A stretch of 64,000 nt of DNA from Actinomadura rubteroloni (GTDB lineage Bacteria; Actinomycetota; Actinomycetes; Streptosporangiales; Streptosporangiaceae), in NCBI RefSeq assembly GCF_002911665.1, contig NZ_MTBP01000002.1:558001-622000 (forward strand). The letters are read 5' to 3'. Position numbers and translations under genes: made by a program. Below, one piece after another: positions 4,087-30,137 of the stretch. The notes beneath the pieces were generated by a model. That model saw nothing but the letters and a program-made list of their open reading frames with translations. It did not search any database and was not told the origin of the DNA. The first letter of the stretch is position 1, and each line of letters opens with the position of its first letter.

Positions 4087-4746
4087 GTGAACGTTCCGGA
4101 GCCCTACGAGCCGCGCGTCCCGTCCGACAGCATGTCCGAGGGACGGGCGGCGCTCAGCGTCACCTGGGCGGCGCTGCCGTTCCTGTCGCTCGGCTTCCTG
4201 ACGCCGTTCACGTTCGGGGCGGCGCTGCTGTGGCGGCGCACCGCGCACCTGCTGGTGTCCACGGCGGTGTACGGGACGGTGTTCGCGCTGATGGTCCTGA
4301 CGGGGACGCTGCTCGGCCCGTTCACGTTCCTGCTGTCGATCGTGGGCTGCGCGCACGCGTTCCTGATCCGCCGCCAGGTGTTCGACCCCGACGGGCTCGC
4401 CGGGGTCGGCAACGACGTGGTCGTGGAGCGCGTGCGGCGGCAGCGGGTCCTGCGCGACAAGGCGCGGGAGCTGGCGGCGTCCGACCCCCGGCTGGCGCGC
4501 GAGCTGCGCATCGGCCGGCCGGACCTGCCCCGGCAGTACAAGGACGGCGGGCTCATCGACGTCAACCACGCCCCGGCCGAGGTGCTGACGCTGCTGCCGG
4601 GCGTGACCGCCGAGCTGGCCGAGCGGATCGCCCGGGTCCGGGCCGAGACGGGCGGGTTCATGTCGGCGGAGGAGATGGCGGCCGTGGTCGCGCTGCCGCC
4701 CGCGATCACCGAGGACGTCGCCGAGTACGGCCTGTTCCTGCGGTGA
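4087..4746 (+). CDS. Membrane protein with C-terminal helix-hairpin-helix domain
   Basis: 219 residues from GTG 4087. Residues ~20-95 form two or three membrane helices (ALPFLSLGFLTPFTFGAALLW, then a segment ending GTLLGPFTFLLSIVGC). A basic linker follows, and residues ~155-219 are a ComEA-like helix-hairpin-helix unit: IDVNHAPAEVLTLLPGVTAE, then ERIARVRAETGGF. HhH pairs of this type bind DNA or act as protein-contact modules, and here the domain would face the cytosol. It lies 47 bp downstream of map on the same strand. Function unknown. Confidence 0.7.
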   Translation: MNVPEPYEPRVPSDSMSEGRAALSVTWAALPFLSLGFLTPFTFGAALLWRRTAHLLVSTAVYGTVFALMVLTGTLLGPFTFLLSIVGCAHAFLIRRQVFDPDGLAGVGNDVVVERVRRQRVLRDKARELAASDPRLARELRIGRPDLPRQYKDGGLIDVNHAPAEVLTLLPGVTAELAERIARVRAETGGFMSAEEMAAVVALPPAITEDVAEYGLFLR

Positions 4747-25995: not shown

Positions 25996-26115
25996 GCGGT
26001 TCCTCCTGGAAAGTACGGCCTGCGGCGTCTCCACCGTGTCATTGATCTTGTTCCGCCGCCAGCGGGGACCGGGCTGGACATCCGTCACATCCGGCCGCTA
26101 TGTTGTTCTCAGATC

Positions 26116-26126
26116 GAGTTAGACTC
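26116..26126. promoter_or_regulatory. Candidate operator of the Nudix/NrtR-like regulator
   Basis: GAGT-TAG-ACTC inverted repeat, 14 bp upstream of the Nudix gene start and just before its AAGGAG ribosome-binding site. Its position suits autorepression of the four-gene operon by the downstream winged-helix domain. Only one copy is seen. Confidence 0.45.
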
Positions 26127-26140
26127 AAGGAGAGAACGAC

Positions 26141-26935
26141 ATGGACGACGCGGACTTCCTCGCGTCCTACGACCCGCGCGCCTACGACCCCGTCGCGGTG
26201 ACCGTGGACGTCGTCGCGCTGACGATCCGCGACGGCGCGCTCGCCGTGCTGCTCGTCCGGCGCGGCCACCCGCCGTTCGCCGGGCAGTGGGCGCTGCCGG
26301 GCGGGTTCGTCGTCGCCGACGGCGAGGACCTGCCCGACGCCGCCGTCCGCGAACTCGGCGAGGAGACCGGCCTCGCCGCGGGCGACGGCGCCCTCGCCCG
26401 CGTCCACCTCGAACAGCTCGGCACCTACGGCGCTCCGGGCCGCGACCCCCGGATGCGGATCGTCTCCGTCGCCTACCTCGCGTTCGCGCCCGAGCTGCCC
26501 GACCCGGCGGCGGGCGGGGACGCCGCCGACGCCGCTTGGACGCCCGTCGCCGACCTACGCCTCACCGAGACCGGCGCGCAGCCGCCCGGCACGACGCGCA
26601 AGCTCGCGTTCGACCACGCGCGGATCCTCGCCGACGGCCTGGAGCGCGCCCGCGCCAAGCTGGAGTACACGCCGCTCGCCACCGCGTTCTGCGCCGCCGA
26701 GTTCACGATCCCCGACCTGCGCGCCGTCTACGAGGCGGTGTGGGGCGAGGAGCTGCACGCGGGCAACTTCCACCGGAAGGTCCTGTCCGTCCCGGGGTTC
26801 GTGGCGGGCACCGGCGGCACCTCCGACGCCCCCGGACGGCGCGGCGGCCCCCGTCCGCGCCTCTACCGGGCGGGCGACGCGCGGCTGCTGCACCCCGCGC
26901 TGCTGCGGCCGGGCCGGGAGGACGAGGTCCGATGA
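26141..26935 (+). CDS. NrtR-like Nudix protein with C-terminal winged helix
   Basis: 264 residues. Residues ~20-160 are a Nudix fold whose box reads GGFVVADGEDLPDAAVREL then GEETGL; it keeps the E-x7-REUxEExGU core but has one extra residue between the first Gly and Glu. Residues ~170-264 (LEYTPLATAFCAAEFTIPDL, then YEAVWGEELHAGNFHRKVL) are the wHTH typical of NrtR, which senses ADP-ribose-like ligands and represses NAD-related genes. It heads a translationally coupled four-gene operon (ATGA overlap with the next gene) with no NAD-synthesis gene, so its effector is probably a nucleotide linked to the PurA-like product. Confidence 0.85.
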   Translation: MDDADFLASYDPRAYDPVAVTVDVVALTIRDGALAVLLVRRGHPPFAGQWALPGGFVVADGEDLPDAAVRELGEETGLAAGDGALARVHLEQLGTYGAPGRDPRMRIVSVAYLAFAPELPDPAAGGDAADAAWTPVADLRLTETGAQPPGTTRKLAFDHARILADGLERARAKLEYTPLATAFCAAEFTIPDLRAVYEAVWGEELHAGNFHRKVLSVPGFVAGTGGTSDAPGRRGGPRPRLYRAGDARLLHPALLRPGREDEVR

Positions 26936-27894
26936 CCGTCCCCGAGGCCCTGCGGCTGCTCGACCGCGCGCGCGATCCGCGCGCGGTGTTCGGCGCGGAC
27001 GAGGCCGAGGCGGCGCGCGTCTACCGGCGGCTGGCCCGCGTCCTGCACCCGGACGCGCCCGGCGGCGGCGACCGGCACGGCTTCGTCCGGCTCGGCGACC
27101 TGTGGCGGAGCTACCACGGCGAAGTCCTGACGACGCCGAAGCGCACCTACCGGCTCGGCCCGCTCGCCGCGCGCGGCGATCTCTGCGCGCTGTACGAGGC
27201 GGGCGACGTCCTGCTGAAGATGCCGCGCGACCCGTCCGACTCCGACCTGCTGGAACGGGAGGCCGCCGCGCTGCGCCGGCTCGCGCGCGGTGAGCGTAAA
27301 TACCGCGCGTACGTGCCGCGCCTGGTCGAATCGTTCCGGCACCGCGACGCCGCGACCGGTGCGGACCGCCGCGTCAACGCGCTCGCCCGGCTGGACGGGT
27401 TCGTCACGCTCGCCGACGTCCGCGCCGCGTATCCAGGCGGCCTGGACGCCCGCGACGTCGCGTGGATGTGGCGGCGGCTGCTCGTCGGGCTCGGGTTCGC
27501 GCACCGGACGGGCGTCGTGCACGGCGCGGTGCTGCCCGAGCACGTCCTGATCCACCCGGCCGACCACGGCGTCGTGCTCGTGGACTGGTGCTACAGCACC
27601 ACCGACGGCGGCCGTATCCCGGCGCTGGTCGCCCGCTACGCCGATCGGTACCCGCCGGAAGTCACCGGGAAGCGGCCCGCCACTCCGGCCACCGACATCT
27701 ACCTCGCCACCCATTGCATGACCGAACTGATGGGCGACGCGGCGCCGGACGCGCTCGTCCGGTTCGCGCGCGGCTGCGCATTGCCCGCGCCCACGGCCCG
27801 TCCGGACGACGCCTGGCGCCTGCTCGGCGAACTGGACGAAATCCTCGAACGGCTCTACGGCCCCCGCCGGTTCCGCCCGTTCACGATGCCCTGA
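26932..27894 (+). CDS. J-domain-like plus pseudokinase protein
   Basis: 320 residues. Residues ~20-65 carry a J-domain-like helix pair with the HPD tripeptide at 39-41 (ARVYRRLARVLHPDAPGGG). From ~72 a protein-kinase-like fold begins: K96 in VLLKMPRD and E110 in LLEREAAAL give the K-E pair, but the catalytic loop reads VVHGAVLPEHVLI (H197) with no HRD aspartate or Asn, and DFG is replaced by VDW (D218). It is therefore likely a binding-competent pseudokinase. Its start overlaps the Nudix stop. A J-domain should recruit DnaK; the kinase-like half may bind nucleotide or a partner in the operon. Confidence 0.8.
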   Translation: MTVPEALRLLDRARDPRAVFGADEAEAARVYRRLARVLHPDAPGGGDRHGFVRLGDLWRSYHGEVLTTPKRTYRLGPLAARGDLCALYEAGDVLLKMPRDPSDSDLLEREAAALRRLARGERKYRAYVPRLVESFRHRDAATGADRRVNALARLDGFVTLADVRAAYPGGLDARDVAWMWRRLLVGLGFAHRTGVVHGAVLPEHVLIHPADHGVVLVDWCYSTTDGGRIPALVARYADRYPPEVTGKRPATPATDIYLATHCMTELMGDAAPDALVRFARGCALPAPTARPDDAWRLLGELDEILERLYGPRRFRPFTMP

Positions 27895-27909
27895 CAGAAG
27901 GAGACCCCC

Positions 27910-28884
27910 ATGGGAAGCGGACACTGGTCCACCGACGTCTACACCGCCGCCGAGAACTACCGCCGGTCCACCGGCGCGAGCGCGTTCGCCTACAGCGACT
28001 CGGGCGCGGCCCGCACCCACCCGTCGCTCGACCCGAAGGGCGTCGTCCTGCGGGAGAGCCGCGACTCCGACGACCACCCCGACTCGCTCGCGATCGGCGT
28101 CCTGTTCGACGTGACGGGCTCGATGGGCGCCGTCCCGCGCGCCCTTCAGCAGAAGCTCCCGGGGCTGCTCGGCCTGCTGCTGCGCAAGGGCTACGTCACG
28201 GACCCGCACATCCTGTTCGGAGCGGTCGGCGACGCGACCTGCGACCGCGCGCCGCTCCAGATCGGCCAGTTCGAGGCCGACAACCGCATGGACGACGACC
28301 TCGGCCGCATCCTGTTGGAGGGCGGGGGCGGCGGCCAGATGCGCGAGTCGTACGAGCTGGCCCTGCACTTCATGGCCCGGCACACCGCGCTGGACTGTTT
28401 CGAGAAGCGCGGGAAGCGCGGCTACCTGTTCCTCATCGGGGACGAGCTGGCGTATCCGCAGGTCAAGGCGCGCGAGGTGTCGAAGGTGATCGGGACCCGC
28501 CTCGGCGCGGACGTCCCGATCGAGGAGACGATCCGCGAGGTGCAGCGCCTCTACGACCTGTACTTCATCATCCCCGAGGGCGCGTTCCACACCAATGACC
28601 GGCGGCTGCGCGACTTCTGGCAGGACCTGCTCGGCCAGAACGTCCTCTACCTGGACGATCCGGAGGCCGTCTGCGAGACGATCGCGCTGACCGTCGGGCT
28701 CGGCGAGGACGCCATCGACCTCGCGGCTGGCCTCGACCACCTCGCCGAGCAGGGGTCGGCGGCGGGCCCGGCCGTGTCGCGGGCGCTGGCGCGGCTGGAC
28801 GCGTCGCGGGGGGCGGTCGTCCGGTCGTCCGCGCCCGCCGGACTCGACCCCGGCGCCGGCCCCGCCGCCACGACCCGGCTGTGA
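27910..28884 (+). CDS. von Willebrand factor A domain protein with MIDAS
   Basis: 324 residues, no signal peptide, so cytosolic. IGVLFDVTGSMGAVPRALQQ holds the metal-ion-dependent adhesion site (D67-x-T69-x-S71, the first Ser of DxSxS being Thr); LFGAVGDATCD, LLEGGGGGQMRESYELAL and YLFLIGDELAYP supply the other MIDAS loops. After ~240 residues a poorly conserved Ala-rich tail follows. vWA proteins usually assemble or chaperone complexes. AGAAGGAGA precedes the ATG, 15 bp after the pseudokinase stop, and its stop overlaps the next start (GTGA). Confidence 0.85.
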   Translation: MGSGHWSTDVYTAAENYRRSTGASAFAYSDSGAARTHPSLDPKGVVLRESRDSDDHPDSLAIGVLFDVTGSMGAVPRALQQKLPGLLGLLLRKGYVTDPHILFGAVGDATCDRAPLQIGQFEADNRMDDDLGRILLEGGGGGQMRESYELALHFMARHTALDCFEKRGKRGYLFLIGDELAYPQVKAREVSKVIGTRLGADVPIEETIREVQRLYDLYFIIPEGAFHTNDRRLRDFWQDLLGQNVLYLDDPEAVCETIALTVGLGEDAIDLAAGLDHLAEQGSAAGPAVSRALARLDASRGAVVRSSAPAGLDPGAGPAATTRL

Positions 28885-30137
28885 CGCCGCACGTCATCGT
28901 CGTCGACCTCGGGTTCGGCGACGCCGGGAAGGGCACCGTCGTCGACCGGCTCTGCGCGACGGAGCCGGTCGCGGCGGTGGTCCGGTTCAACGGCGGCGCG
29001 CAGGCCGCGCACAACGTCGTGACGCCGGACGGACGCCACCACACGTTCGCGCAGTTCGGCTCGGGCACGTTCACGCCCGGCGTGCGGACGCACCTGTCGC
29101 GGTTCATGCTGGTCGATCCGCTGGCCCTCGCCGCCGAGGCCGCGCATCTGGCGTCCGTGGGCGTCCCGGACGCGCTCGACCGGCTGACCGTCGACGCCGC
29201 CGCCCTGCTCACCACGCCGTACCACCGGGCGCTGAACCGGGCGCGCGAGACGGCGCGCGGCGCGGGACGCCACGGCTCCTGCGGCATGGGCGTCGGCGAG
29301 ACCGCCGCCTACGCCCTGGCCCGCCCGGACGACGCGCCGCGCGCCGCCGACTGCCGCTCCCCCGCCCGGCTGCGCCGTCTCCTGGCCCTGCTGCGCGACC
29401 GGTACTACGCCGAGTTCCCCGGCGGCGCGCCCGTCCCGCCGGTCGAGGACTGCGCGGCGGCGTTCCTGGCCTTCGGCACGCGCGTGCGGCAGGTGGACTC
29501 CTCGTTCCTGCCCGAGCTGCTGCGCTCGGGTCCGGTGGTGTTCGAGGGCGCGCAGGGCGTCCTCTTGGACGAGAACCACGGCTTCGACCCCTACACGACC
29601 TGGTCCACGACAACGTTCGCCAACGCCGAGACCCTTCTCTCCGAAGCGGGCGCGGACGCCGTCCGCCTGGGCGTCCTGCGCGCCTACGCGACACGCCACG
29701 GCCCGGGCCCGTTCGTCACCGAGGACCCGGCGCTGACCGCCGCCCTCCCCGACCCGCACAACGGCACGGGCCCCTGGCAGGGCGTCTTCCGCGTCGGCCA
29801 CCTGGACGAGGTGGCGCTCCGCTACGCGATCGACGCCTGCGGCGGCATGGACGCCCTTGCCGTCACCCACCTCGACGTCGCCGCCCGCCGCCCCGACCTC
29901 CTGCGCTGCACCGCCTACACCTGGCCCGCGCCAAGCGGCCCCGAACACGTCACACGGCTCCCCGCCCTCCCCGCGCGGGAACTGACAGCACGGCTGCTGC
30001 GGGCCCGTCCGGTCTACGCGGCGCTCGGCGACGCAGCCGAGGCGGCGGCCGAGATCGCCGGCGCACCGGTCGCCCTGCGCTCGCACGGGCCGACATGGCA
30101 GGACAAACAGGTCGCGGCGCCACTCCCGCACGGCTGA
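28881..30137 (+). CDS. Divergent adenylosuccinate synthetase (PurA)-like enzyme
   Basis: 418 residues from GTG 28881. The PurA P-loop is present but altered: FGDAGKGTVVD where housekeeping PurA has WGDEGKGKxVD; the catalytic Asp (D14) and Lys (K17) remain, as does the catalytic His (H44 in NGGAQAAHNVV). VVFEGAQGVLLDENHGFDPY matches the FEGAQG block. The aspartate-binding loop, normally TTGRPRR, is not recognisable: the segment reads NGTGPWQGVFRVGHLDEVAL, with one Arg left. It probably condenses an amino acid or amine with a purine nucleotide other than the IMP/Asp pair. Last gene of the operon; a decayed copy of its 3' end follows. Confidence 0.85.
   Translation: MTPHVIVVDLGFGDAGKGTVVDRLCATEPVAAVVRFNGGAQAAHNVVTPDGRHHTFAQFGSGTFTPGVRTHLSRFMLVDPLALAAEAAHLASVGVPDALDRLTVDAAALLTTPYHRALNRARETARGAGRHGSCGMGVGETAAYALARPDDAPRAADCRSPARLRRLLALLRDRYYAEFPGGAPVPPVEDCAAAFLAFGTRVRQVDSSFLPELLRSGPVVFEGAQGVLLDENHGFDPYTTWSTTTFANAETLLSEAGADAVRLGVLRAYATRHGPGPFVTEDPALTAALPDPHNGTGPWQGVFRVGHLDEVALRYAIDACGGMDALAVTHLDVAARRPDLLRCTAYTWPAPSGPEHVTRLPALPARELTARLLRARPVYAALGDAAEAAAEIAGAPVALRSHGPTWQDKQVAAPLPHG

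Follow-up and report, generated by a model that had tools for sequence, protein, structure and literature searches.

What a divergent relative of the textbook purine enzyme PurA (adenylosuccinate synthetase) might be doing in a tightly packed cluster with a Nudix regulator, a J-domain pseudokinase and a vWA protein is the question raised by a 64,000-nucleotide stretch of Actinomadura rubteroloni DNA (assembly GCF_002911665.1, contig NZ_MTBP01000002.1, positions 558,001 to 622,000 of the forward strand), which is referred to as the window. The cluster, like every feature located in the window below, lies on the plus strand and comprises an NrtR-type Nudix regulator of 264 residues (26141..26935), a J-domain plus pseudokinase protein of 320 residues (26932..27894), a vWA protein of 324 residues with a site resembling a metal-ion-dependent adhesion site (MIDAS; 27910..28884) and a PurA-like enzyme of 418 residues (28881..30137), a divergent paralogue of adenylosuccinate synthetase. 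With a probability of about one half, we read the cluster as a ligand-switched module linked to nicotinamide adenine dinucleotide (NAD), whose PurA-like ligase is predicted from its sequence to use an amine other than aspartate. A deep and conserved branch of so familiar an enzyme with a rewritten nucleophile pocket would imply an undescribed purine reaction, and in bacteria, on plasmids and in large phages alike this branch goes together with a vWA protein and a J-domain pseudokinase.

The PurA-like protein matches the Pfam family Adenylsucc_synt (PF00709) at 202.5 bits, above the cut-off, and shares with PurA the whole fold, the P-loop for guanosine triphosphate (GTP), Asp13, His41, Gln224 and Thr239. 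In an alignment of 64 members of its family, the catalytic and GTP residues D13, K16, H41 and Q224 are each kept in all 64 and T239 and D333 in 63; the P-loop GDAGKG with its catalytic Asp and Lys, both 64/64, is encoded at 28917..28934. What differs from PurA is the aspartate loop and most of the residues that hold the phosphate of inosine monophosphate (IMP), which are replaced. Among Thr300, Thr301, Arg303 and Arg305, which we take to be the aspartate-contact positions of PurA, the place of Thr301 is held by Gln in 62 members and Ala in two, that of Arg303 is a gap in all 64, that of Thr300 is aromatic (W, F or Y) in 57 and that of Arg305 is mostly F, L or W, while Arg306 is kept in 63. The window protein has W, Q, a gap and F at the places of T300, T301, R303 and R305, within the stretch WQGVFR (29775..29792) that replaces the aspartate-binding loop, and at 29697..29699 a His, found in 64/64 members, takes the position that Val273 has in E. 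coli PurA. Of the positions that contact the IMP phosphate, N38 is retained in only 2 and T129 in only 4 of the 64 members, and R143 and R303 are named in the titles of solved PurA mutant structures. An earlier reading of this DNA made from the letters alone (the sequence-only reading) had described the aspartate-binding loop as lost, and the alignment bears this out, Thr301 and Arg303 occurring in none of the 64 members.

By its sequence the PurA-like family is a clade separate from housekeeping PurA. In a tree that took in 37 of the 64 aligned rows together with 11 canonical PurA rows, a branch of 2.41 with a support of 100/100 separates the two sets, and the window protein scores 161.8 and 127.1 bits against curated purA models with cut-offs of 402 and 395.55. 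An identity with PurZ, the 2-aminoadenylosuccinate synthase of Z-genome phages (PurZ and PurZ0), was considered and rejected: phage PurZ carries Ser (or Gly) in place of Asp13 according to the portion of PMC12884076 consulted, whereas the PurA-like family keeps Asp in 64/64 members, and the window protein reaches 36.5 bits against the 300-bit cut-off of the PurZ model NF038379. A protein of 437 residues filed as Mycobacterium tuberculosis (P0137) is 74% identical to the window PurA-like protein and looks like a mislabelled record of Actinomadura type.

The company kept by this enzyme was followed through two scans with the vWA protein, one of species-representative genomes (at least 564 relatives) and one of the 2.9 million viral contigs of IMG/VR (276 relatives), the best 80 of each being used as genome loci, which are actinobacterial, and viral loci. 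All four genes are present in 77 of the 80 genome loci, in the same order and strand in 76 under a stricter filter, so the expectation that the set would be found together in other actinobacteria was confirmed. The four reading frames and their coordinates were also reproduced, as were two stop-start overlaps, ATGA between the NrtR and J/pseudokinase genes and GTGA between the vWA and PurA-like genes, and the 15 bp that separate the J/pseudokinase gene from the vWA gene. With gene starts assigned by script, the 80 genome loci show the 4-bp overlap at the first of these junctions in 55 of 79 measurable pairs and at the vWA to PurA-like junction in 31 of 77; the tight packing of the four-gene cluster is general across relatives. 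Among the loci collected by then no reading frame was matched by two of the four core profiles, and therefore no fusions exist among those loci. A wider conserved actinobacterial operon did not emerge from the clustering of neighbours, which gave mainly flanks common to near relatives in a picture blurred by spurious frames of high GC content.

Presence and absence in whole genomes follow the same line. The vWA gene was found in 33 of 36 genomes of the genus, in none of 23 other genomes drawn as relatives, in 28 of 296 genomes and 15 of 115 genera of an even sample of the class, and in one of 198 genomes of a phylum sample, namely its own. Within flanks of about 1.5 kb, which limit the counts, the 28 vWA-positive genomes carry an adjoining PurA-like gene in 28, a J/pseudokinase gene in 26 and an NrtR gene in 20 cases. 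In each of these 28 genomes a single canonical PurA (597-615 bits) is accompanied by a single divergent PurA next to the vWA gene, the latter scoring 163-215 bits in 26 genomes and being split into two matches in the other two. In 40 vWA-negative genomes from the genus, class and phylum listings the divergent PurA was found in none and a single PurA in 39. Throughout this set of genomes, the vWA protein and the divergent PurA are either both there or both missing. With a separate housekeeping purA in 28/28 module-bearing genomes the PurA-like protein is in none of them the sole copy; being the sole copy was part of a condition under which the sequence-only reading would have fallen. The remaining vWA-negative genome has a second, less divergent PurA paralogue of 421 bits (G160:C135:14997-16226), an extra PurA of a different sort. 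One member of the genus (G026:C1:522709-523646) has its vWA match broken into two frames by an internal TGA, as in a decayed copy or an assembly error.

Outside chromosomes the set shrinks to a core. The 80 viral loci hold the vWA and PurA-like genes in 79, the J/pseudokinase gene in 60 and an NrtR-like match in just 3, by which the supposed four-gene core is corrected to three genes, and the actinobacterial scope first assumed proves too narrow, since the set also sits on proteobacterial plasmids and, as the core, in phages. The four window proteins match the phage families PHROG 1198 (74 bits), 3043 (152), 2971 (223) and 1211 (252). A tblastn search of 50,697 phage records found the PurA-like protein in 225 records, which may include other kinds of PurA, and the vWA protein in 207, Mycobacterium phages making up 189 and 188 of them; among the mycobacteriophage rows listed, the vWA protein is annotated merely as "hypothetical protein". 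Both of two Bixzunavirus mycobacteriophage records have the order kinase-like gene, vWA gene, a gene of 88 residues and PurA-like gene, and Vibrio phage Va1 and Rhizobium phage RHph_TM61 have the vWA gene followed by the PurA-like gene without a clear J/pseudokinase gene. The vWA gene occurs in 21 plasmid records; in all six plasmid loci fetched, from actinobacteria, alphaproteobacteria and betaproteobacteria, the trio of J/pseudokinase, vWA and PurA-like genes is present, with a Nudix/NrtR gene or part of one in five, divergently oriented in two. On the Allorhizobium plasmid pAtS4e (L028 9479-16984) the trio is followed by AAA ATPase, DUF5682, DUF4132 and VWA genes, another vWA cluster adjoining it. 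Across 57 viral loci the pairwise distances of the vWA, PurA-like and J/pseudokinase proteins correlate at 0.85-0.92, against at most 0.16 when permuted.

The two middle proteins were assigned from motifs and folds. Pfam at an E-value of 0.01 finds neither a vWA nor a DnaJ domain in them, and the Pkinase match is below threshold; the assignments rest on the HPD motif, the MIDAS aspartates and the vWA-fold model. The HPD motif of the J domain (27046..27054) has its H, P and D kept in 55, 53 and 55 of 58 relatives, and Pfam places DnaJ on the homologue from phage Gizmo at an E-value of 0.0013, below the cut-off. A protein-kinase fold was found by profile in the J/pseudokinase protein, and an active Ser/Thr kinase was rejected, as the Asp of the HRD motif is kept in just 2 of the 58 relatives and gone in 56. 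In the vWA protein, MIDAS motif 1 (DVTGS, 28108..28122) has D67 in 54/54, T69 in 53/54 and S71 in 53/54 sequences, and motif 3 (GDE, 28438..28446) has D178 in 54/54; the pattern DxT/SxS with a downstream Asp is joined by a confident vWA-fold model, and the MIDAS aspartates are common to nine vWA sequences from the window, five plasmids and three phages. A search of solved structures with the vWA alignment profile gave nothing real (best E-value 0.36).

In the Mycobacterium phage DrPhinkDaddy (152275-154056; L033:5001-6782) the vWA gene is interrupted by an intein-like insert of about 250 residues, which sits three residues ahead of the MIDAS motif IGDE. In the phage Pinkcreek, gene 241, which lies between a listed kinase (240) and a PurA-like gene (243), is called an HNH endonuclease in the part of PMC9476963 consulted; this "HNH endonuclease" is possibly the intein-like insert of the vWA gene rather than the host protein.

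One link to NAD comes from the regulator. NrtR regulators typically bind ADP-ribose and control genes of NAD metabolism, and the window protein shows NUDIX at 70.5 bits and NrtR_WHD at 37.4 bits, both above the Pfam cut-offs, with its Nudix box starting at residue 54. Just before its start, outside the segment described by the sequence-only reading, lies an operator-like array, CTCAGATCGAG-N5-CTCAAGGAGAG, with two CTCN5GAG sites 16 bp apart (26108..26134). Upstream of the NrtR gene in the 80 genome loci and the window, the CTCN5GAG site is found in 81/81 regions and the pair 16 bp apart in 73/81, whereas shuffled letters yield the single site in 3.6/81 on average and the pair in none. Nothing else in the window matches the array, even when one mismatch is allowed, and a scan of the 6.47-Mb genome gave a single exact pair (none for the reversed control); the site being unique, the regulator looks dedicated to its own operon, as judged from a predicted operator and a genome scan for the exact pair only. 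Of 86 relatives, 62 have a complete Nudix box (the window protein is one of them), 15 a partial and 9 a degenerate one. Hydrolysis therefore cannot be what they all have in common, though the window protein itself, having a complete box, may hydrolyse. Together with the winged helix and the conserved upstream site, the degenerate boxes favour the part of the sequence-only reading that made this protein a sensor. Its genome holds a second NrtR-type regulator (L258 ~4136-4309; G000:C1:365636-365809), and the frames listed around it include no evident NAD gene.

Phage neighbourhoods add to this. Of the 80 viral loci, 3 have NAMPT close to the module and 4 have NADAR, which is also found there in the isolate phage Va1. 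A reverse scan with a phage NAMPT gave 80 loci, five with the vWA and PurA-like genes (two of them contigs already known), and a scan with a phage NrtR gave nine, with the whole module in 3 and NAMPT in 7. In six distinct viral contigs the vWA and PurA-like genes thus stand within about 4 kb of an NAD-salvage gene, in the orders NrtR-NMNAT-NAMPT-two small genes-J/pseudokinase-vWA-PurA (L158), NrtR-vWA-NMNAT-NAMPT-PurA-J/pseudokinase (L129), NrtR-NAMPT-vWA-PurA-J/pseudokinase (L293), vWA-PurA-NADAR-NAMPT (L171), vWA-PurA-NAMPT (L333) and NAMPT with vWA-PurA about 4 kb on (L264). The NrtR regulator of the bacteria and the NAD-salvage neighbours in phages therefore tie the module to NAD or ADP-ribose metabolism. 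As a whole, the sequence-only reading, in which a hypothetical nucleotide conjugate, possibly a signal, would be made by the PurA-like enzyme, presented by the two middle proteins and sensed or degraded by the Nudix protein, stands in part: co-occurrence, the extra PurA, the rewritten aspartate loop and the sensor were supported, the four-gene core was not, and the context points to NAD and ADP-ribose metabolism.

From these observations a sequence of events can be proposed. Breakdown of NAD+ would raise ADP-ribose, upon which NrtR would leave its predicted operator and the cluster would be switched on. With GTP, the PurA-like enzyme would phosphorylate an IMP-like purine nucleotide at its 6-oxygen, and some nucleophile that is not aspartate would then displace that phosphate; the enzyme would thus probably couple an oxopurine nucleotide to a non-aspartate amine. 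An arm that handles its partners is probably formed by the vWA and J/pseudokinase proteins, in which the J domain would recruit host Hsp70 (DnaK) and the metal-binding vWA protein would hold the target or the enzyme in assembly or presentation. In large phages the same core may serve to control purine or NAD nucleotides while they infect the host. A bolder version, decidedly speculative and in our estimate rather improbable in its full extent, adds a third branch to the PurA superfamily, in which a purine aminase or ligase working in one step would bypass aspartate and PurB, with an aromatic residue, Gln and His filling the old aspartate pocket and with ammonia, nicotinamide or a protein lysine delivered by the arm of vWA, J/pseudokinase and Hsp70 as nucleophile; NrtR would switch it on upon NAD+ destruction, and giant phages would carry it, at times beside NAMPT-NMNAT, in a fight over NAD+ and adenine nucleotides. 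The NrtR, NAMPT and NADAR neighbours make the question of the substrate testable and connect it with NAD+ biology and phage conflict.

Several observations weigh against reading the cluster as an NAD-linked module with a non-aspartate ligase. Because only the 80 top-scoring loci were taken from at least 564 in genomes and from 276 in viral contigs, the counts favour close relatives. Within the fetched stretches, no PurA-like match was found in 2 of the 80 genome loci and 1 of the 80 viral loci, and no J/pseudokinase match in 1 of the 80 genome loci; a clear J/pseudokinase gene is missing from 20 of the 80 viral loci. The distance correlations partly reflect common ancestry. The CTCN5GAG site is missing within 250 bp upstream of the J/pseudokinase gene in the six plasmid loci and in Gizmo, where other palindromes were noticed by eye only. 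Pfam finds no NAD gene among the nine window proteins scanned. Only 3 of 80 viral loci have NAMPT near the module and only 5 of 80 phage NAMPT loci carry the module, raw counts that stand without a background NAMPT rate for large phages. Which nucleophile and purine are used, and what the vWA and J/pseudokinase proteins do, is read from sequence.

Other explanations have to be set against the same facts. The PurA-like protein may still be an adenylosuccinate synthetase, or one acting on deoxy-IMP, with a reshaped aspartate site, the operon then being a regulated second copy with chaperone-like helpers; this we consider unlikely, given a canonical PurA in 28/28 module-bearing genomes, scores far below the curated purA cut-offs and a pocket in which T301 and R303 are kept in 0/64, T300 is aromatic in 57, R305 is mostly hydrophobic and N38 and T129 are rarely kept. 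An ordinary second purA is likewise not favoured, its aspartate-loop residues being rewritten beside a canonical copy in every such genome. As AAA+ ATPases often partner vWA proteins, the PurA-like protein could instead be a GTP-driven switch or motor that replaces such an ATPase for the vWA protein and makes no metabolite; we hold this to be improbable, because the residues of purine chemistry H41, Q224 and T239 are kept in 63-64 of 64 members and the new pocket residues, His at 273 and Gln at 301, are invariant or nearly so. A chance neighbourhood, or one due to synteny among actinobacteria, of genes without a common function agrees with flanking genes also common to close relatives, and is nonetheless barely credible: the core order is kept in phages, proteobacterial plasmids and actinobacteria with different flanks, and the joint presence of the vWA gene and the divergent PurA in 28 genomes and their joint lack in 40 argue strongly against it.

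A phage-host conflict, in which the bacterial module would be a defence triggered by NAD or ADP-ribose and the phage core a counter-defence, is possible though doubtful. The vWA-PurA pair in Mycobacterium, Rhizobium and Vibrio phages and in large uncultured phages speaks for it, as do weak matches of the kinase-like part to the defence kinases MAD6 (4.6e-9) and MkoA (4e-10); the kinase-like half of 26932-27894 also weakly matches PD-T4-6. Further points in its favour are the theme of a Nudix regulator with a vWA protein in predicted anti-ADP-ribosylation systems (PMC9503650) and the known phage NAD-reconstitution pathways (PMC12774641), as far as the consulted parts of these sources go. The module is nevertheless near-universal in the genus (33/36 genomes), which most defence genes are not; the four genes include no killing effector such as a nuclease or NADase, and PADLOC gave no match for the vWA or PurA-like protein.

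Measured against PurA, PurZ, the ADP-ribosylglycohydrolase (ARG)-centred systems and the NAD-reconstitution pathway (NARP) NARP2, the module fails a defining feature of each. With NrtR regulators of NAD metabolism it shares the Nudix domain with the NrtR winged helix and a palindromic site upstream, whereas the window operon has no NAD gene and the exact site pair only at the operon itself; the phage relatives are near NAMPT in 7/9 loci. The closest published idea, in the portion of PMC9503650 consulted (section 3.8), is the theme of a Nudix regulator with a vWA chaperone in predicted ARG-centred anti-ADP-ribosylation systems. These systems likewise have a Nudix regulator and a vWA protein in one neighbourhood; unlike what that portion describes, the four genes comprise no ADP-ribosylglycohydrolase, phosphatase or nuclease and hold a PurA-like and a J/pseudokinase gene instead. 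No ADP-ribosylglycohydrolase was found among the nine window proteins scanned. Phage NAD salvage or NARP (NAMPT-NMNAT; Adps-Namat) resembles the module in that NAMPT is at the same loci in six phage contigs; it differs in that both enzymes are missing from the module and, for most of the copies fetched, from its surroundings, NAMPT and NMNAT (the salvage of NARP2 type) being missing among the same nine window proteins. No description of the gene set was found in the literature searched, though conflict-system papers beyond that collection could contain one.

The wider phage neighbourhood was tallied by Pfam for 139 viral proteins, hand-picked from 230 candidates (roughly 120 residues or more, some near-duplicates dropped). 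The tally gave NADAR 4, DNA ligase 3, R2K_2 3, R2K_3 3 (perhaps the same proteins as R2K_2), NAPRTase 2 and NAMPT_N 2, numbers too small for a statistical test. In 11 viral loci (L144, L146, L148-L150, L157, L159, L161, L165, L168 and L190) an ATP-grasp gene of the R2K clade is found at a distance of 2-8 kb from the vWA gene. It is given no weight here, because these are mostly phages that look related and have other neighbours in common too; a second ligation step is a possible role for it.

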